From: Deltaproteobacteria bacterium
Lineage (GTDB): Bacteria > Desulfobacterota > DSM-4660 > Desulfatiglandales > Desulfatiglandaceae
Direction: 5' to 3'
Assembly: GCA_019307645.1 (NCBI GenBank)
Contig: JAFDJF010000224.1
Span: forward strand, 1 to 7,294
DNA length: 7,294 bases
This document shows positions 1-7,294 of this stretch, piece after piece. The translations under genes and the position numbers were made by a program. Every line of letters begins with the position of its first letter. The stretch's first letter is position 1. Below the pieces are notes generated by a model. The model was given only the letters and a program-made list of their open reading frames with translations. It was not told the origin of the DNA and made no database searches.

Positions 1-823
1 TCTTCACACCAAGCCACCCTGCATCAACGTATTTCCGAAGAAGGGGGCACGGCCGGTATTTGGCGTCACCTAATCCGGAATGCAGGACTTCCATAATGGC
101 CAAACACGTATCCAGACCAACAAGGTCAGCCAGGGCCAACGGACCCATGGGATGGTTCATACCCAGTTTCATCACCCGATCTATATCCTGCGCAGTGCCT
201 ACACCCTCAAAAAGGGCATATATGGCCTCGTTGATCATCGGCATAAGGATCCTGTTGCTGATAAATCCCGGGAAATCGTTGGCAGGCACCGGGGTTTTTC
301 CCATCTTCACGGAAAGATCCTGAGTGACCTGGTTGGTCTCATCGGACGTGGCCAACCCATTGATGATTTCCACAAGTGCCATCATTGGCACCGGGTTCAT
401 AAAATGCATGCCGACTACTTTTTCAGGCCTTTCTGTGGCGTTACCGATTTTCGTGATAGAAATGGAAGACGTATTTGAGGCTAAGATAATGCCTTTCTTA
501 CAGTTTTCATCCAGATCAGTAAAAATCTGAAGCTTTAAGGTCTCGTTCTCTGTGGCAGCCTCCACCACAAAATCGGCTTCGATCATATCGTTTAAAGAGG
601 TTGAGCCCTCTATCCTGCCCAGGATCGCCTTCTGATCTTCCTGAGTGATCTTCTCCTTTTTGACCATACGCCCAAGGCTTTTCTCAATAGCAACAAAACC
701 TCTTTCAACAAATTCGTCTTTGATATCGTTCATAATCACGGAAAATCCGCTGGCTGCCGCCACCTGCACAATACCTGAACCCATCTGTCCTGCGCCGACA
801 ACGCCTATCGTTTTTATCTCCAT
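1..823 (-). CDS. hbd: 3-hydroxybutyryl-CoA dehydrogenase (3-hydroxyacyl-CoA dehydrogenase family), C-terminus cut by window edge
   Basis: NAD(P)-dependent oxidation of (S)-3-hydroxybutyryl-CoA to acetoacetyl-CoA, or the reverse, in the cytoplasm; used in beta-oxidation or butyrate-type metabolism. The visible 274 residues contain both family domains. An N-terminal Rossmann fold has the dinucleotide motif VVGAGQMGSG at about residues 8-17, and the catalytic-region motif HFMNPVPMM follows. The C-terminal 3HCDH domain starts near DFPGFISNR and runs through GMNHPMGPLALADLVGLD. Relatives are about 280-285 residues, so only about 8-12 residues should be missing. The ATG at 821-823 has a strong Shine-Dalgarno AGGAGG (834-839) 10 bases upstream. 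It is on the same strand as the xdhC-yqeBC run but separated by 277 bases, so it may be a separate transcription unit with no direct role in selenium metabolism. Family call is firm; exact substrate chain length is inferred. Confidence 0.93.
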   Translation of the reverse strand, partial: MEIKTIGVVGAGQMGSGIVQVAAASGFSVIMNDIKDEFVERGFVAIEKSLGRMVKKEKITQEDQKAILGRIEGSTSLNDMIEADFVVEAATENETLKLQIFTDLDENCKKGIILASNTSSISITKIGNATERPEKVVGMHFMNPVPMMALVEIINGLATSDETNQVTQDLSVKMGKTPVPANDFPGFISNRILMPMINEAIYALFEGVGTAQDIDRVMKLGMNHPMGPLALADLVGLDTCLAIMEVLHSGLGDAKYRPCPLLRKYVDAGWLGVK

Positions 824-1100
824 ATTCTGTATGCCTCCTATAATGTTACTCAAAATTTATGACAAATTTAAAGAACCCTGGCCCTGACGACCCGGATTCC
901 TTCGCTTAATCAAATTGTTATTCACTGTAGCAGTTTAGCACTTTGCCAAACTGGGGCGAGTCCGGTGAGAGTCTCCTTTCAAAAGATCTCAACACGGATA
1001 TTAGAAAAGTTCAAAGAAGTTATCAATGGTCTTTTCTCAGGCAGGGCGGGTTGCCGTTTCATCAAAATACTAACCCGTTAGAAACAAAAGAAAATAGACA
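824..1100. other. intergenic region between hbd and xdhC
   Basis: 277 bases without a convincing gene. It holds the hbd ribosome binding site (834-839), an AT-rich leader just upstream, the partly palindromic motif at 931-953, and a GGGTT/AACCC inverted repeat (about 1048-1079) just past the xdhC stop. That repeat lacks a U-tract on either strand, so I do not call it a terminator. No well-formed sigma-70 promoter for hbd could be fixed by eye. Confidence 0.5.
931..953 (+). repeat. partly palindromic motif, copy 1 (CAGTTT-N11-AAACTG)
   Basis: The arms CAGTTT and AAACTG are perfect reverse complements flanking AGCACTTTGCC. A near-identical copy lies at 5436-5456 in the same orientation; the two share the core TTAGCACTTTG followed by AAACTG, with one substitution and a 2-base gap between them. 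It lies about 108 bases upstream of hbd, so it could be an operator or a dispersed repeat. Function is unknown. Confidence 0.5.
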
Positions 1101-1904
1101 TCAGCACGTCCAGATTTTAGGCCCTGAAGACTCTGTCTCCCTTCTAACCATTATGATTTCCGCCATAATGCTGACGGCTATTTCCTCCGGAGTCTCAGCA
1201 TGTATATCAAGCCCGATAGGGGCATGAACCGTCTCCAGCAATTCCTTTGAAATACCTCTGGATTCCAGGTGGGAAAATACGGTTCTGTTCTTTTTTCTGC
1301 TGCCTATCATACCAACATATCCAGCATCCGTCTTCACCGCCCATTCCAGCACCTTTTCATCCAGAAGATGCCCTCTTGTGACAATAACGATATAGGATGA
1401 CGGGGTTATCTTGAGCCTGGGAAGCACATCTTCAAGATCCCGGGCAATGGTCTCATCTGCCTCTGGAAACCTGTCAGGACTGGCAAACTCTTCTCTGTCA
1501 TCGATCACGACCAGTTTAAACCCCAGCATCTTGCCGATTTTGGCTATGAAAAATGAAATATGCCCTCCCCCAAAGATATATAAGACAGGTTTTGTCATAA
1601 TGGGTTCAACAAAGACCTCCATGGTTCCGCCACAGATCATCCCCTCTTCGGCCACTTCTTTCCCGGTAAGATCAAATTGAAGCACCCGAGATCTGCCATC
1701 GGTTATCACCTCCCTGGCTTCCTGGCAAACCTGGGCCTCATAACTCCCCCCACCTATGGAGCCCAGGATGCTTCCGTCACTCCTGACCAACATCTTTGAC
1801 CCTTCCGCCCTGGGAGTTGAGCCTTTAATGGTTGTAATGGTGGCAAGTGCGGCCCTTCCTCCTTCAGACCTTATCTTTACAATCTCTTCAAAAATATCGT
1901 CCAT
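1101..1904 (-). CDS. xdhC: XdhC/CoxI-family molybdenum hydroxylase maturation protein
   Basis: XdhC-family proteins bind molybdenum cofactor, promote its sulfuration (or here probably selenation), and hand it to xanthine-dehydrogenase-type hydroxylases in the cytoplasm. The 267 residues show both family domains. The N-terminal XdhC_CoxI domain has GSTPR (28-32), GSIGGGSYE (48-56) and the conserved cysteine motif MICGG (89-93). The C-terminal Rossmann-like XdhC_C domain has FGGGH (111-115), TRGH (176-179), MIGSRKK (199-205) and the tail motif PIGLDIHAETPEEIA (229-243). The ATG at 1902-1904 has GGAG (1913-1916) 8 bases upstream. It is the last gene of the accessory run; a 261-bp element now separates it from yqeC, and reconstruction gives an original spacer of 28 bases. 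The symbol reflects the family; the client hydroxylase is not in the window. Confidence 0.92.
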   Translation of the reverse strand: MDDIFEEIVKIRSEGGRAALATITTIKGSTPRAEGSKMLVRSDGSILGSIGGGSYEAQVCQEAREVITDGRSRVLQFDLTGKEVAEEGMICGGTMEVFVEPIMTKPVLYIFGGGHISFFIAKIGKMLGFKLVVIDDREEFASPDRFPEADETIARDLEDVLPRLKITPSSYIVIVTRGHLLDEKVLEWAVKTDAGYVGMIGSRKKNRTVFSHLESRGISKELLETVHAPIGLDIHAETPEEIAVSIMAEIIMVRRETESSGPKIWTC

Positions 1905-1939
1905 AATGAAATCTCCATGAAATAGAGAGCCCTTACCCG

Positions 1940-1947
1940 GTAACGAC
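1940..1947. repeat. left target-site duplication of the MITE-like element
   Basis: GTAACGAC directly abuts the left terminal repeat and is identical to 2209-2216, which abuts the right terminal repeat. Eight bases is the duplication size typical of the IS66 family. Confidence 0.8.
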
Positions 1948-2009
1948 GTAACATCTCAATAAATTCGGGTCGGTTTAGGCGGCGGCGGTGTTTTTTTAGG
2001 AATCCGCAT
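1948..2009 (+). repeat. left terminal inverted repeat of the MITE-like element
   Basis: Matches the reverse complement of 2138-2208 with a few substitutions. It is about 9 bases shorter in the segment between TTCGGGT and the GGCGGCGGCGG block. Imperfect arms suggest an old insertion or a family with unequal ends. Confidence 0.8.
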
Positions 2010-2137
2010 CACCCATGTAGGGATGCGATTATACGCGTCAAGCCTGGATTTCAAGCAACGAAAAGGCAGCGAAGATTTAAAGCCTCACATTACAAATTGC
2101 GTAGATAGCTGCCGTCAGTTTGGAATGATTCCCAAAT

Positions 2138-2208
2138 ATGCGGATTTCTAAAAAGACACCGCCGCCGCCTTATTGCAGCGATCTTACCCGAACTTTTTGA
2201 GAAGTTAC
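2138..2208 (-). repeat. right terminal inverted repeat of the MITE-like element
   Basis: Read on the minus strand it starts GTAACTTCTCAAAAAG, passes TTCGGGTAAGATCGC and the GGCGGCGGCGGTGT block, and ends AATCCGCAT. The TAA within its terminal GTAA is the stop codon now used by yqeC. Confidence 0.8.
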
Positions 2209-3044
2209 GTAACGACTTCTAAAACAGGTGGCTGGGATTTCGCCTGCCCCAGCACAACTCGACCAATCTGCGGGTGCCCTGCTTTCAGGATCCTGGAAGC
2301 CAGGATTCTCGCATTTGACAGCCCGTCATTAAGATCCGTCTTGTTGACAAAAGGGACAATCCTGCTTTGAACCGGACTTCCGCAAATTATACCGGACGGG
2401 TGCGTCATCAAAGTGGCAACAGTATCCGGCGAAACAACATCGCCCAACGCATTCCCTGATAATTTGGCCGCGATCTCAGATCTGAACACATGCGCCTCAC
2501 TCAGTTCACAACCCAGTGCATCGATGCCCACCACCGGGATCACTAAAGACGAGTTCTGAGGAATCACCGGCTCGTGATCAATATTCGGGGCCTTCAGTGG
2601 TCTTCCTGCCGCACCGTCTGCCTCCACAATAATGCATGATACAGGCTTGAGTCTACATAATCCTGCGATCAACTCCGGATCGAGCCCCTTCAGTTTTCCG
2701 GAGGAAACGATATTCTCAGAGGCGATGGTGATATGACCGTATTTTTCAGCTTTATTGAGGATGAAATCCGCTATTTCATCATCTTTCTCAGAAACCAGAA
2801 CATAGGGCGTGTCCGATGAGGAAGGGTAAAATATCTTGGTCGTGGTAGTCGTAATAACAAGTTTTTTTGGCGCCGCCAGCTCCCTGGCCAGGGCAAACAT
2901 AAGTGTGGTTTTTCCGCCGGCGCCAACCAGGCTGACCACCTCGCCCGGTTCGATATCAAAGGCCTCTCTCCATGTGTCTATCAGTCCGCCATTCGCCAAA
3001 ATTTCACCATACCCGAGGGCTTTTACTTTTCGATGATCACCCAC
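2205..3044 (-). CDS. yqeC: YqeC, selenium-dependent molybdenum hydroxylase accessory protein (P-loop)
   Basis: YqeC co-occurs with SelD and selenium-dependent molybdenum hydroxylases and is thought to act in their maturation; its reaction is unproven. Numbering from the chosen start, the protein shows a P-loop VGAGGKTT (40-47), the family motif EADGAAGRPLKAP (141-153) followed by HEPVIP, and NKTD (234-237), a GTPase G4-like motif. Start is uncertain. I chose the GTG at 3042-3044, preceded by a purine-rich GGAAGAGGG, which overlaps the methyltransferase gene by 22 bases and gives 279 residues. TTG at 3069-3071 (288 residues) or TTG at 2997-2999 (264 residues, closest to usual family size) are alternatives. 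The ending LEVVT-stop uses a TAA supplied by the inserted element; the reconstructed pre-insertion gene ended LEVVTG, so the protein is essentially intact. Confidence 0.9.
   Translation of the reverse strand: MGDHRKVKALGYGEILANGGLIDTWREAFDIEPGEVVSLVGAGGKTTLMFALARELAAPKKLVITTTTTKIFYPSSSDTPYVLVSEKDDEIADFILNKAEKYGHITIASENIVSSGKLKGLDPELIAGLCRLKPVSCIIVEADGAAGRPLKAPNIDHEPVIPQNSSLVIPVVGIDALGCELSEAHVFRSEIAAKLSGNALGDVVSPDTVATLMTHPSGIICGSPVQSRIVPFVNKTDLNDGLSNARILASRILKAGHPQIGRVVLGQAKSQPPVLEVVT
2209..2216. repeat. right target-site duplication of the MITE-like element
   Basis: GTAACGAC, identical to 1940-1947. It lies inside the last codons of yqeC (minus-strand GTC GTT AC), placing the insertion point at the extreme 3' end of that gene. 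Confidence 0.8.
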
Positions 3045-3622
3045 AAACCGCCCTCTTCCACAATGCGACAACGGCCACCCATCTCCGATCTCCTGAGGAT
3101 CTCTTTTAGATTCTCTACAGTAACCCGCTTCCTGCCCAGTCTATCATTCAACTCACGGGATTCATCAGCGATTTCACGGATAAACTCATCCGGTGTGTCT
3201 TTCCCGTAGCCCCCACCTACAAAGGCTATGCCATCTTCTTTGAGAACCCGAAAAATCTCCCAAAAAATCTTCCCCCTTTCATCCAGGAAAAAGAAGGCTC
3301 CCCTGAATATCACCAGATCAAATTGGGAATCATTGAAATCGAGGAAATTCAAATCGGTTTGTCTAACTTCAATGCCTCGGGACAACCCGGCAGCTTCTAT
3401 TTCCGCCGCGAAATATTCTAAAACCTGCAACGAGGTATCCGCAATAATAATCCTGAGTTCGGGATATTGTTCGGCCAATTCCAGGGATATTCCCCCTGAA
3501 AATGGTCCGAGTTCCAGTACAGATCCAAAATCTTTCTGATAAGACGCGGCAATCTGGGATGCCAGGAAAGGATAAATTCTCCTCCATAAGCTGTTTACCT
3601 GTTTTAAAAGGTCAAAATCCAT
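3023..3622 (-). CDS. class I SAM-dependent methyltransferase in the yqeB-yqeC operon
   Basis: A 199-residue Rossmann-fold methyltransferase. Motif I is VLELGPFSGG (35-44), the acidic end of strand 2 is IIIADTS (58-64), a QTDLNFLDF segment (88-96) fits the adenine-contact region, and the post-strand-4 segment runs GAFFFLDERGKIFWEIFRVLKEDG (108-131). This is the methyltransf_11/25 type, and no substrate can be read from it. ATG at 3620-3622 lies 6 bases after the yqeB stop, and the gene's end overlaps or nearly touches yqeC, so it is probably translated with both. Its own Shine-Dalgarno is weak (GAG), which fits translational coupling. Its position between yqeB and yqeC suggests a role in selenium or molybdenum cofactor handling, for example methylation of a selenium or sulfur intermediate or detoxification. 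That role is inference. Confidence 0.88.
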   Translation of the reverse strand: MDFDLLKQVNSLWRRIYPFLASQIAASYQKDFGSVLELGPFSGGISLELAEQYPELRIIIADTSLQVLEYFAAEIEAAGLSRGIEVRQTDLNFLDFNDSQFDLVIFRGAFFFLDERGKIFWEIFRVLKEDGIAFVGGGYGKDTPDEFIREIADESRELNDRLGRKRVTVENLKEILRRSEMGGRCRIVEEGGLWVIIEK

Positions 3623-3628
3623 GTTTGC

Positions 3629-4432
3629 TCAACGGTTATAATGAGATAACACGCATTCCAGCACGCTCCCCCCGATGGCCCTTGCCTTTTCAGAAACAGT
3701 ATAGCAGAATTCCTTTTCCCCTCTGGGGTCTATGTCCCCTGCTTTTATACCCTTCCAGACACGTGTCCCATCTCTTAACATGCCTCGAATAACCCCCTTT
3801 ATCCGGGCCTTAACCGGAGTACCGTCAACCTCTGCAATCACCTCGCCTGCCTCGACAAAATCTCCAATGTCTTTCAACGTTTTAAGGCGACCCTCCTTTG
3901 GCCCGCGAAACACCCTTTCAGCGCCATAACCGGCAATAACCCCGGGGATACCCGTATTTTCTTCCGGCTCTCCCTCAGACAGGACCCTCCCCAGATTGTG
4001 ACCGCGATTGGTTTCCACGACCAGATGCACATCCTTTCCCGCACAAAAGCCCGGGCCCAGACCGATAACCAGAGGAGCATCCGTTATCTTGGTGCCCAGG
4101 TTTTTTTTGGCCAGTATGGCATCCACCACAACATCCGGCTTCAGGAAATCAATCACCCCGGCCTCCGGATCAACAATAATCGGTATCCGGCCACTGTCCC
4201 ATACACCCTGAACCTGATCGTAAGATTCTATCAATCCGACTGTTACCCCCTCCAACGCCTTTTGACCGTCATAGACGGCCTCGCAAAAAGATACTTCTCT
4301 CCTGACTGCCAGGGGTTGCGAGATATCTGTCACGCATATTATTTTAAAACCGGATTTGAACAGCCTACAGGTAACACCGCTTGCCATTTCCCCGCCGCCT
4401 TTAACGACGAACTTCAATTTCTCTAAAGACAT
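3629..4432 (-). CDS. yqeB: YqeB (EF2563-family selenium-dependent molybdenum hydroxylase system protein)
   Basis: A member of the YqeB/EF2563 family, a marker of the labile selenium cofactor trait. It is thought to help mature selenium-dependent molybdenum hydroxylases, with no reaction firmly established. The 267 residues match the usual length of about 265-275. Conserved blocks, in order: VKGGGEMASG (10-19, Rossmann-like glycine-rich start), QPLAVRR (39-45), CEAVYDG (50-56), VVDAILAKKNLGT (102-114), LGPGF (125-129), DVHLVVETNRGHNLGRV (134-150), and a C-terminal lipoyl/biotinyl-like section GDFVEAGEVIAEVDGTPVKA (190-209). I chose ATG 4430-4432 because GAGGTGAGG precedes it and the Rossmann start then falls near residue 10. 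An upstream in-frame TTG (4508-4510) would add 26 unsupported residues and overlap the previous gene. It follows the DUF364 gene by 59 bases and precedes the methyltransferase by 6. Confidence 0.93.
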   Translation of the reverse strand: MSLEKLKFVVKGGGEMASGVTCRLFKSGFKIICVTDISQPLAVRREVSFCEAVYDGQKALEGVTVGLIESYDQVQGVWDSGRIPIIVDPEAGVIDFLKPDVVVDAILAKKNLGTKITDAPLVIGLGPGFCAGKDVHLVVETNRGHNLGRVLSEGEPEENTGIPGVIAGYGAERVFRGPKEGRLKTLKDIGDFVEAGEVIAEVDGTPVKARIKGVIRGMLRDGTRVWKGIKAGDIDPRGEKEFCYTVSEKARAIGGSVLECVLSHYNR

Positions 4433-4486
4433 CCTCACCTCATCATGACATTTTTTGCATAAATTGGACACACACCGAATTATCAA

Positions 4487-4509
4487 TGCCCTTACAAACT
4501 GTAAGGGCA
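4487..4509 (-). promoter_or_regulatory. perfect 10-bp hairpin at the DUF364-yqeB junction
   Basis: On the minus-strand transcript, TGCCCTTACA and TGTAAGGGCA form a perfect 10-bp stem with a 3-base loop. The DUF364 stop codon (4492-4494) lies in the stem. No U-tract follows in the operon direction, and A residues follow on the plus strand, so it is not a canonical intrinsic terminator. It may attenuate, protect or be a processing site between the first gene and yqeB. Confidence 0.55.
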
Positions 4510-5208
4510 AAAATGCTCCAGACCCAGCAAACGGGCCGGGCCGGCAATAGTCACGCCGTAAAATATCACGGGTTTCTCAGTCTTGAATTCACCAATTGTA
4601 TCGTTTACAAGCGTGGTTCCGGTTATCAGCGCTATATCGCACCAGTTGAGATTTGCTTCCGTCCTTTGCGGAGGCCCAATCGTTATCCCATACGCCTTCT
4701 GCCCAATATTGTTTTCATCCAGATCCATTACCTTCACATCAAACTCACCGGAAAGCGTCTCCAACATCCTGGGCTGCAACCCCCCCAGAGCGACCTTCGG
4801 CTTGCCGAATTCCTCCTTCAGATATTTTATCAGTTCCTTACTGCATCTGACAGGGCTTGTGCCTCTGCAGTGTATGCTCTTATCGATCATTCCCAGATAT
4901 CTCATCACCGCATTAATGGTAGAGATAAGTATGGCACGCCTGAAATTGCTTGTCAGGTTCATTTCAACAATCTGAGATAGCCTGCCCTCGAAATTGTCCG
5001 GCATATCTGTGAATGCCTGGCCAAATGAACCTCTAAACTCCGCCTGTATCAATCGCTCTTTACCCTTCTGAAGAAGGGAATCACGGTGTTCGGGATTTCC
5101 GACTGCCTCTTTCGCTGTAAGGGCTCTGCCCGAAATCTTCACTTCTTCAGATGCCAAATTCGCTTGATCCACGATCTCTGAAAATTTTTTCTTTAAGGTT
5201 TCGTACAT
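4492..5208 (-). CDS. DUF364 / putative heavy-metal chelation domain protein (DUF4213-DUF364 architecture)
   Basis: A 238-residue protein. Its N-terminal half has NPEHRDSLLQKGKERLIQAEF (38-58), GQAFTDMP (63-70) and INAVMRYLG (98-106), as in DUF4213 (enolase N-terminal-like) regions. Its C-terminal half is a Rossmann-like DUF364 domain with VALGGLQPRMLE (139-150), MDLDENNIG (161-169), ADIALITGTTLVN-like text at 190-202 and an ending PVIFYGVTIAGPA (213-225). Family members are linked to metal or metallocofactor handling, but no reaction is known to me. ATG 5206-5208 was chosen because GGGGGA precedes it at a usable distance; a GTG at 5227-5229 would add 7 residues and swallow that site. It is the first gene of the yqeB/yqeC/xdhC run, pointing to a role in molybdenum or selenium cofactor assembly (inference). 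Its stop codon lies in a hairpin. Confidence 0.85.
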   Translation of the reverse strand: MYETLKKKFSEIVDQANLASEEVKISGRALTAKEAVGNPEHRDSLLQKGKERLIQAEFRGSFGQAFTDMPDNFEGRLSQIVEMNLTSNFRRAILISTINAVMRYLGMIDKSIHCRGTSPVRCSKELIKYLKEEFGKPKVALGGLQPRMLETLSGEFDVKVMDLDENNIGQKAYGITIGPPQRTEANLNWCDIALITGTTLVNDTIGEFKTEKPVIFYGVTIAGPARLLGLEHFCPYSL

Positions 5209-5232
5209 ACTGATCCCCCGGCAATACACATG

Positions 5233-5502: not shown

Positions 5503-6090
5503 ATGAAAACAAGCTTTTTGCTGAAGATTGTTAACCCGATTCTTGCGGTTGTGTTTCTTTATAACAGGCATTATTTGTGGATTTTTTTTGCACTACTGAT
5601 CCCCCAGACAGTTTTGGGTGACTCAGACCTGACAGATGCAGAAAAGAAAGAGATAGTGTATGAAATGTATGAAGGCTACAAAAAAGAATTTCCGCTAGTG
5701 AAAGACATATCTCCCCGCCAGGCAATGAAACAGATGGAAACCGGACATGTGCTTTTTATTGATACACGAAAACCATTAGAAATGAAGGTTTCCATGCTTC
5801 CGGGTGCAATGAGCAAAGAAGCATTTCTGAAAGACGCCTCGAAATACAAGGGGTGGACAATCATCGCCTACTGTACCATCAGCTACCGCAGTGGAAATTT
5901 TGCCGTAAAGATGTCAAACAAAGGGATTGATATCTACAACCTGAAAGGGGGACTGCTTGCCTGGGTCCTTGAAGGCGGCAGGATTTATGACGCCACTGGA
6001 GAAACAAAACGGGTTCATGTCTACGGTAAAAAATGGAACTATCTACCCAGGGGATATGAAGCGGTTTTTTTCAGCTTTTTTGAAAAGTAG
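5503..6090 (+). CDS. exported or membrane-anchored single-domain rhodanese
   Basis: A 195-residue protein with a hydrophobic N-terminus in two segments (about 10-20 and 24-39, ending TVLGDSD), consistent with a signal peptide or anchor. A rhodanese domain then covers about residues 65-162. Key features are FIDTRKPLE (85-93), the six-residue active-site loop C124-T-I-S-Y-R129, and YNLKGGLLAWVLEGG (145-159) as the usual C-terminal rhodanese element. The tail VHVYGKKWNYLPRGYEAVF (171-189) recurs in similar proteins. Rhodaneses carry sulfur as a cysteine persulfide, and some carry selenium, which makes a link to the next gene, selD, attractive. However, the predicted location outside the cytoplasm argues against simple direct delivery. 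ATG 5503 has AAAGGA (5491-5496) 6 bases upstream. The catalytic residue is a normal TGT cysteine, not UGA. Confidence 0.9.
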   Translation: MKTSFLLKIVNPILAVVFLYNRHYLWIFFALLIPQTVLGDSDLTDAEKKEIVYEMYEGYKKEFPLVKDISPRQAMKQMETGHVLFIDTRKPLEMKVSMLPGAMSKEAFLKDASKYKGWTIIAYCTISYRSGNFAVKMSNKGIDIYNLKGGLLAWVLEGGRIYDATGETKRVHVYGKKWNYLPRGYEAVFFSFFEK

Positions 6091-6100
6091 TAACTACGCA

Positions 6101-6205
6101 GGTTCAAGGGTTCACGGTTCAGAGCCTGCCCCGGACCCCGATCCGGCCTTCGCCGGAATGACGAAGGAGGGTGTTTCCCGACTTTTTACGAGTTCATCAT
6201 TCTTG
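6101..6205 (+). repeat. dispersed intergenic repeat (GGTTCA triplet plus GC-rich hairpins)
   Basis: Three GGTTCA units (6101, 6109, 6116) at 7-8 base spacing are followed by GC-rich imperfect palindromes: CCGGA/TCCGG around 6131-6145 and TCCGGC-CTTC-GCCGGA around 6142-6155. Then come AATGACGAAGG and a segment GACTTTTTACGAGTTCATCA. This combination resembles high-copy intergenic repeats in deltaproteobacterial genomes (established style, copy number not checked). It may act as a 3'-end stabiliser or partial terminator for the rhodanese mRNA. Confidence 0.6.
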
Positions 6206-6511
6206 TTTTGATCTAAAATCTCAATCTCGCTTCTCTCAGAACGCTCTCAAGCTTCACTTCGATAAAAGGATCTCACCCAACCTATCGGTTTTCCCTATAA
6301 AAACCGCTTTAGCTATCGGAATTTCCAGTTTGATTAATCGGACTTTTTCCATTATGGTTTAGGTCTTCGATCAACTGATACCGAAGAAGCAATGTTTCAA
6401 ATGATTTCGAAGGTTGGGACTATTTCAGCAGGAGGATCATAATAAGGGTTACTTACATTTTTTCAACCACTAACTCACACCATATCTTAACCCCTGAGTT
6501 GCATAAAAACC
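6206..6511. other. unassigned stretch upstream of selD
   Basis: 306 bases with no convincing gene. It has a small inverted repeat TCTTCG/CGAAGA (about 6363-6386) and an AGGAGG-like sequence near 6431-6436 not followed by a start codon. Two plus-strand reading-frame pieces read protein-like across a frame change near 6345, the second ending at a TAA around 6442-6444; this may be a decayed gene end. A 32-codon minus-strand ORF (6254-6352) has no ribosome binding site. A selD promoter is not evident. Confidence 0.4.
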
Positions 6512-7294
6512 ATGACAGACAAAAAAGAGCTTCGCCTCACAGAAACGGTAAAAGGCTCTGGCTGAGCATCCAAATTAGCCCCAGGGGACCTGGACAGGGC
6601 ACTTTGCGGACTTGAATTTCCGACGGATCCAAATTTGATTGTAGGTTTGGATCGGGCGGACGACGCCGGGGTTTATAAAATAACGGACGATATCGCCATT
6701 ATCCAGACGGTGGATTTTTTTACACCCATAGTGGATGAGCCATACTGGTTCGGCCAGATAGCTGCGGCAAATGCCCTGAGCGATGTCTATGCCATGGGTG
6801 GAGTTCCCAAGACAGCCATGAACTTGGTCGGTTTTCCGATCAATCAGATGGACATCTCCGTCTTGCGCCGGATCCTTCAGGGAGGTCTGGACAAGATGAA
6901 AGAAGCGGAAGTTGTTTTGGTAGGTGGCCACAGCGTGGAGGATGATGAACTCAAATATGGCTTATCAGTGACAGGTTTTGTTCATCCAAATCGCGTGTTA
7001 ACAAAAAAAAATCTTAAAGCAGGCGACCAATTGATACTGACTAAACCCCTTGGAACCGGCATCATCAACACGGCTATCAAAGGAGGAATCGCGTCCGGCG
7101 AAGTGATTGAAACCGTCACCATGCTTATGGCAACCCTGAACCGGGACGCTGCAGAAATAATGAAAGGCTTTCCCGTCCATGCGTGTACTGATATCACCGG
7201 ATTTGGTCTTCTGGGGCATATGGCGGAGATGGTGATTGATTCCGGCCTTGGAATTGAGGTTCGGGCGGACAGTATTCCCTTTTTAGAAGAGGCC
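6512..7294 (+). CDS. selD: selenide, water dikinase SelD, selenocysteine-containing, C-terminus beyond window
   Basis: SelD makes selenophosphate from selenide and ATP in the cytoplasm, the selenium donor for selenocysteine, selenouridine and labile selenium cofactors. The frame from ATG 6512-6514 reads through a TGA at 6563-6565 (residue 18) in the context KGSG-U-ASKLAP. This is exactly where SelD has its catalytic Cys or Sec, three residues before the essential Lys (K21). Downstream family blocks are intact: DDAGVY (50-55), TVDFFTPIVD (66-75), AANALSDVYAMGG (85-97), LVGGHSVE (136-143), TKPLGTG (177-183) and CTDITGFGLLGH (225-236). So the TGA is decoded, not a mutation. 261 residues are visible; about 85 should remain. 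An in-frame TAA precedes the ATG at 6503-6505, fixing this as the only usual start, yet its ribosome binding site is poor. Gene callers that stop at TGA would miss or truncate this gene. Confidence 0.95.
6563..6600 (+). promoter_or_regulatory. bacterial SECIS element and selenocysteine UGA codon
   Basis: Directly after the UGA (6563-6565), CCAGG (6581-6585) and CCTGG (6589-6593) form a perfect 5-bp apical stem with loop GGA (6586-6588). GCC (6578-6580) and GGC (6598-6600) can extend the stem across an internal loop. The apical loop lies 21-23 bases after the UGA and begins with G, as expected for a bacterial SECIS recognised by SelB. The SelB contact details are inferred. Confidence 0.8.

Follow-up and report, generated by a model that had tools for sequence, protein, structure and literature searches.

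A selD gene with an in-frame TGA at its catalytic position, very probably read as selenocysteine, in a putative relative of Candidatus Desulfaltia

The stretch of DNA analysed, hereafter the window, is 7294 bases long. The minus strand of positions 1-5229 carries hbd, an XdhC-family factor, yqeC, a methyltransferase gene, yqeB and the gene of a DUF364 protein, and these are divergent to two genes on the plus strand, which specify a rhodanese-domain protein and selenophosphate synthetase (SelD). To judge by the nearest relatives of the SelD, the host would be an anaerobic relative of Candidatus Desulfaltia (Thermodesulfobacteriota). The features of the locus referred to below are:

1101-1904, minus strand: XdhC-family molybdoenzyme maturation factor (PF13478, PF02625; NF045664 at 329.7 bits, just below its cut-off of 350)
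2205-3071, minus strand: yqeC, selenium cofactor biosynthesis (TIGR03172, E 2.8e-51, above cut-off)
3629-4510, minus strand: yqeB, selenium-dependent molybdenum hydroxylase maturation (TIGR03309, E 3.2e-110, above cut-off)
5503-6090, plus strand: rhodanese-domain protein, whose gene precedes selD in the same orientation (PF00581, E 1.8e-9)
6512-7294, plus strand: selD, selenide water dikinase (selenophosphate synthetase) of the selenocysteine (Sec) type, running past the end of the window (TIGR00476, AIRS and AIRS_C, PDB 2yye and 3u0o)
6563-6565, plus strand: in-frame TGA, predicted to be read as Sec (alignment with the loop Cys of 2yye and 3u0o; TGA/Cys split in relatives)
6578-6600, plus strand: possible outer extension of the hairpin below, GCC/GGC (6578-6580 with 6598-6600) across a 4-nt bulge, seen in the centroid structure only
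6581-6593, plus strand: candidate bacterial SECIS (bSECIS) hairpin CCAGG-GGA-CCTGG, loop GGA at 6586-6588 (five pairs kept in near Sec-type SelDs; fold)

The presence of yqeB and yqeC near selD is the feature by which a putative selenium-dependent molybdenum hydroxylase cluster was recognised; no molybdenum hydroxylase subunit was found among the eight genes of the window that were scanned. In PMC2276186, YqeB and YqeC are presented as proteins proposed to assist selenium-dependent molybdenum hydroxylases, with genes lying near selD in some genomes. Since yqeB and yqeC lie near selD in the window as well, the SelD encoded here may feed both Sec synthesis and a selenium cofactor. In many of the best 80 of 107 relatives of this SelD, the neighbours of selD are yedF, yedE or genes related to them, and the yqeB/yqeC arrangement was found in none of the 80 within the DNA compared. 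The space between the xdhC-like gene and yqeC contains a 33-nt inverted repeat (1977-2009 and 2138-2170) whose arms are 94% complementary and separated by 128 nt; it may be a hairpin element or a small mobile one.

The selD frame extends from the ATG at 6512 to the end of the window and is interrupted only once, by the TGA at 6563-6565. With this codon translated as Sec (U), the product reads MTDKKELRLTETVKGSG-U-ASKLAPGDLDR... Although its C-terminus is cut by the end of the window, the protein matches the curated model TIGR00476 (selD) at E 3e-102, scoring 342 bits where the cut-off is 125; the match spans the TGA, and the AIRS and AIRS_C domains were both detected. When the translation was aligned with two solved SelD chains, GSG-U-ASK fell on SGCAAK of 2yye and AGCGCK of 3u0o, placing the TGA where homologues have a Cys, in the N-terminal loop in which SelDs bear Cys or Sec. 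This position is followed by a conserved Lys, which we take to have a catalytic role. The preliminary description of this DNA had placed a single TGA, with the frame open on either side of it, at the catalytic Cys/Sec position; its coordinates proved right, and the alignment with SelD families that it had proposed put the protein in the SelD family with the TGA on the loop Cys. It had also held, correctly, that standard ORF calling misses the catalytic part: a plain ORF listing finds only the frame that starts at the TTG at 6635, so SelD loses its N-terminus together with its catalytic residue. That same listing is what would be obtained if the TGA were a true stop, the gene being a pseudogene or being translated only from the TTG at 6635; such a start, however, would omit the catalytic residue.

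The relatives of this SelD also argue against a stop. In the best 80 of the 107 relatives, the catalytic codon is TGA in 76 and a Cys codon in four, with no other residue in any. The nearest relative is the SelD of Candidatus Desulfaltia (genome G001), with 85% identity. The class to which G001 belongs was sampled evenly (147 genomes, SelD counted at E up to 1e-60), and SelD was present in 138 of these genomes. Exactly one TGA occurred in 147 of the 148 SelD rows recovered from them, the exception being a fragment that begins at profile position 97, and in all 30 loci checked from these rows the TGA stood at the aligned catalytic position. The frame ahead of the TGA is conserved among the relatives. 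In a second class, that of genome G010, SelD was present in 89 of 97 genomes; its 106 SelD rows comprised 97 with one TGA, eight full-length Cys forms (all eight checked) and one fragment. This distribution in both classes indicates that Sec-type SelD is the norm in these groups. It also bears on the idea that faulty sequencing or assembly turned a Cys codon into TGA: all nine of the nearest named relatives (loci L001-L009) have TGA at this position, and they come from separate genomes, which makes such an error exceedingly improbable.

Cys-type SelDs were found in loci L010-L012 and L050 and in the eight full-length rows of the class of G010. Seven of the eight genes behind these full-length rows (loci L178, L182, L185, L186 and L207-L209) come from genomes in which another SelD row, containing one TGA, is present. 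A Cys-type SelD next to a TGA-containing SelD in one genome would possibly be a selenium-independent starter enzyme.

The preliminary description had also pointed to a GG-looped hairpin at SECIS distance from the TGA. The arms of this hairpin (6581-6585 and 6589-6593) enclose a loop that lies 20 nt past the UGA. A passage of PMC13188914 sets the constraints of bSECIS elements at a loop of 3-9 nt, a stem of 4-16 bp, a G in the first two loop positions and a distance of 16-37 nt from the UGA; with its GGA loop, 5 bp and 20 nt, the hairpin of the window fits the values quoted there, and this part of the description holds. It is a short form, with 5 bp versus 6-7 in the 14 relatives listed. An RNA fold, the check that had been suggested, did not single out the hairpin by its energy. 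In four folds compared with shuffles the window alone gave z values of +0.45 to +0.68, and shuffling of synonymous codons gave z -0.48 (p 0.285); with z near zero, the fold energy of the window alone was rejected as evidence of a SECIS. When the window was scanned against Rfam (E up to 1), nothing matched at the hairpin; three matches fell below threshold, all of them away from the UGA. A promoter and terminator scan of positions 6060-6700 gave weak matches only.

A comparison of relatives was more informative. The set used contained 148 SelD places (the window, the 80 relatives, 30 loci from the class of G001, 30 from the class of G010, and two further sets of 3 and 4, with a few genes included twice), whose aligned catalytic codon is TGA in 136, TGC in nine and TGT in three; removal of rows identical over 60 nt left 140, of which 129 were Sec forms and 11 Cys forms. 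The five stem pairs are kept in every one of the 37 Sec-type SelDs at or above 65% identity, the window included, and the codons under the stem are invariant in these 37 (GGG in 37/37, GAC or GTC in 37/37, CTG in 37/37). Most other four- and six-fold sites near the hairpin vary among them: the Ala codon directly after the TGA occurs in four synonymous forms, and the Leu codon in fourth place in at least five. Synonymous fixation is not confined to the stem: a Cys codon later in the frame is TGC in 33 of 34. In two of the 37 (L004 and L005) the encoded Asp has changed to Val with the stem kept. These two SelDs (L004:283-1068 and L005:19-804) also have RSG-U instead of GSG-U ahead of the Sec. 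Over the distinct sequences, the five-pair stem was found in the same register in 73 of the 129 Sec forms versus two of the 11 Cys forms. Synonymous shuffles gave a mean z of -1.44 for the 129 Sec forms (stem 6.72 versus 4.45 bp) and of -0.56 for the 11 Cys forms (stem 4.64 versus 4.00 bp), a difference that was borderline in a one-sided Mann-Whitney test on only 11 Cys sequences and uncorrected for relatedness (p = 0.057). Because pairs and codons are invariant across relatives, and not on account of the window's own fold, the pattern reads as selection on an RNA hairpin in the near relatives. The lack of significance of the window's hairpin on its own is compatible with the TGA being a true stop; the invariant codons under the hairpin, with the conserved frame ahead of the TGA and the near-universal TGA in the class of G001, leave that explanation next to no credibility.

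Translation of a Sec codon would require the rest of the Sec machinery, and this was sought in the ten genomes nearest to the window. In nine of the ten selB scored above cut-off, and in nine selA was found, in G004 as two pieces. Rfam tRNA-Sec scored above its gathering score in eight; since the match in G007 is a tRNA-Cys-like selC* gene (see below), a canonical tRNA-Sec is present in seven. The best tRNA-Sec matches of G006 and G009 are a tRNA-Ser and a tRNA-Leu according to ARAGORN, and in G006, G007 and G009 the absence of tRNA-Sec cannot be concluded because 150 of 735-942 tRNA candidates were scored. The profile search gave neither a selA nor a selB match in G005. The missing matches perhaps reflect genome incompleteness or, in three genomes, the limited scoring of candidates. 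Outside these ten, a Cloacimonadota MAG (G050, the genome of locus L051) has two selB genes above cut-off and no selC* match.

These results are consistent with the window gene being an ordinary Sec-containing selenophosphate synthetase, a reading to which a probability of about 0.96 may be given, and as far as sequence comparison can tell the UGA is very probably read as Sec. The central claim of the preliminary description, that this SelD is a selenoprotein of the Sec type and has a bSECIS, is upheld by homology, the position of the UGA, the invariant codons, the near-universal UGA and the Sec machinery of most of the nearest relatives. From these we infer Sec insertion, a Sec machinery in the window's genome and SelD activity. 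In the mechanism proposed, SelA would use selenophosphate to convert Ser-tRNA-Sec into Sec-tRNA-Sec; SelB would bind Sec-tRNA-Sec and the hairpin at 6581-6593 and deliver Sec at the UGA at 6563-6565, competing there with release factor 2. The Sec, located in the flexible N-terminal loop (GSG-U-ASK), would handle selenide, and the AIRS domains would make selenophosphate using ATP. The selenophosphate would then serve selenoproteins and possibly, judging by the yqeB, yqeC and xdhC neighbours, a selenium-dependent molybdenum hydroxylase as well.

None of this is out of the ordinary. Parts of PMC4561486 and PMC13188914 state that SelD is itself a selenoprotein in many species, and a part of PMC8318568 that marine Deltaproteobacteria with Sec utilization have a selD which itself contains a Sec residue; Sec-type SelD being a well-known selenoprotein in the account of PMC13188914, the finding is of a kind already known. 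When the window SelD was compared with Sec-type SelD/SPS2 (TIGR00476), the position of the residue, the loop motif, the domains and the downstream bSECIS were the same, and no difference was noticed beyond sequence divergence. The Cys-type SelDs belong to the same family, with a Cys codon replacing the TGA and the five-pair stem in two of 11 as against all of the 37 near Sec forms. The preliminary description had seen an autocatalytic loop in an enzyme that makes the selenium donor and itself depends on Sec. The logic is sound; the loop is neither new nor absolute, because Cys-type SelDs occur in relatives and some relatives carry a published tRNA-Cys(UCA) that, acting with a divergent SelB (SelB*), could decode this UGA as Cys.

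Genes resembling those of such a system were found in several relatives. The selC* tRNA-Cys/SelB* system was reportedly described by Mukai et al. in 2017. The second tRNA copies in these relatives have a UCA anticodon, U73, an acceptor stem of 8 bp and a T-stem with a bulged A, and the divergent selB that follows such a tRNA is 29-39% identical to canonical selB and 48-83% identical among the four compared. By their sequences, the two fit the published selC* tRNA-Cys and SelB*, whose structure and genes are described in section 6 of PMC7609411; the account given here also draws on a portion of PMC8124441. A search model built from four sequences (model R1, matches counted at 86-120 bits) found selC* in 12 of 104 distinct genomes (4 of 50 plus 11 of 58 relatives of G001, with four genomes and three matches shared). 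Nine further matches at 44.8-47.9 bits were left uncounted; the one checked, in G002, overlaps an ordinary tRNA-Sec. Ten of these 12 genomes have a selB*, partial in some cases, that adjoins selC* or lies near it (that of G197 is partial and ~1.5 kb away), and no selB* was found after selC* in the other two, G100 and G122.

In four of these genomes selC* and selD share a contig and a strand, with selC* upstream by 7.9 kb in G001, 8.9 kb in G100 (a partial selC* match), 12-14 kb in G140 and 20.6 kb in G092, and the genes in between include ones related to a double-cubane reductase and its activase, to YedE and YedF and to a YjeF-like kinase. In G003, the C-terminal piece of a SelB* opens a contig 4.8 kb upstream of selD, ahead of yedE...selD. 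In contrast, selC* is unlinked to selD in G054 (more than 1 Mb apart on one 4.46-Mb contig) and in G084 and G007 (other contigs); for G004, G122, G160 and G197, the available pieces do not allow linkage to be read. At loci L001 (1-8001), L167, L168 and L170, selC* heads a selenium-assimilation cluster that ends with selD, with selB* in all but L170. The selC*/selB* unit of L167 is doubled, one of the selB* genes being in two frames. The gene beside selB* in L001 (2154-3629) encodes a double-cubane-cluster reductase, and directly downstream of selD in the same locus (9204-10232, minus strand) there is an Rnl2-family RNA ligase-like gene, at 185.9 bits under its cut-off of 197.15. The selB* of G003 (L003:1-486 and L114:1602-3029) is split over contig ends and seemingly frame-broken in both pieces; going by these pieces, the Cys-recoding system may be decaying there, unless the assembly is at fault.

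This arrangement raises the idea that the UGA of SelD is decoded in two ways, as Sec by SelB and tRNA-Sec if selenium is available and, if it is not, as Cys by selC*/SelB*. A selenium-independent Cys-SelD would then restart the pathway and escape the deadlock in which Sec synthesis needs SelD and SelD needs Sec, and the organism of the window would need selC* and selB* elsewhere in its genome. A part of PMC9437257 states that selC*-type tRNAs insert Cys at Sec UGA codons and posits a role for them when selenium is scarce, which, with the incidence of selC* and selB* and their position upstream of selD in several relatives, speaks for this idea. One TGA was also present in the SelD rows of all 11 selC* genomes in which SelD was seen, of the 12; since UGA is near-universal in SelD, this co-occurrence is uninformative. 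Against it, selC* and selB* were sought in the window and neither a tRNA gene nor a selB* was found there, and the genes upstream of its selD differ from those of the selC* clusters. The unlinked selC* genes, the selC* genes with no selB* after them and the seemingly broken selB* of G003 also weigh against it.

The synthetases give no further help to this idea. Section 6 of PMC7609411 reports a dedicated CysRS* downstream of selB* for Desulfobacterales. Each of the 12 selC* genomes has two CysRS matches (TIGR00435, E up to 1e-15); none lies near selC*, the nearest on one contig being 95 kb off (G054). A long second CysRS was also found in eight of nine genomes searched for selC* without a match (a count that excludes G181, which was outside the selC* search), and the second CysRS, occurring without selC* too, was therefore rejected as its partner. 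This second CysRS is an open frame of ~725-840 aa, common in the examined genomes with or without selC*. In a SelD tree of 45 rows, the rows nearest to the window by path carry selC*, and no set of selC*-bearing rows contains the window; as the bootstrap was unsettled as well, the prediction of selC* in the window's organism from the tree was dropped. On balance, the alternate reading of the UGA as Cys is improbable as an account of the window gene, for which decoding as Sec is preferred, although the UGA of SelD might sometimes be read as Cys in some relatives. Relatives of the window SelD have the system, the window itself does not, and any action of it on selD is putative. No statement of selC*/SelB* being located with selD was met with in the literature covered, to which the primary paper does not belong, and the arrangement is hence not claimed to be unpublished.

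For annotation, the finding means that standard gene calling removes the N-terminus and the catalytic residue from a central selenium enzyme. In several relatives, a published machinery for reading UGA as Cys lies upstream of selD within one selenium cluster. The proximity of selC*/SelB* to selD would offer a specific, testable answer to the question of how selenoprotein synthesis may restart after selenium starvation when SelD is itself a selenoprotein.
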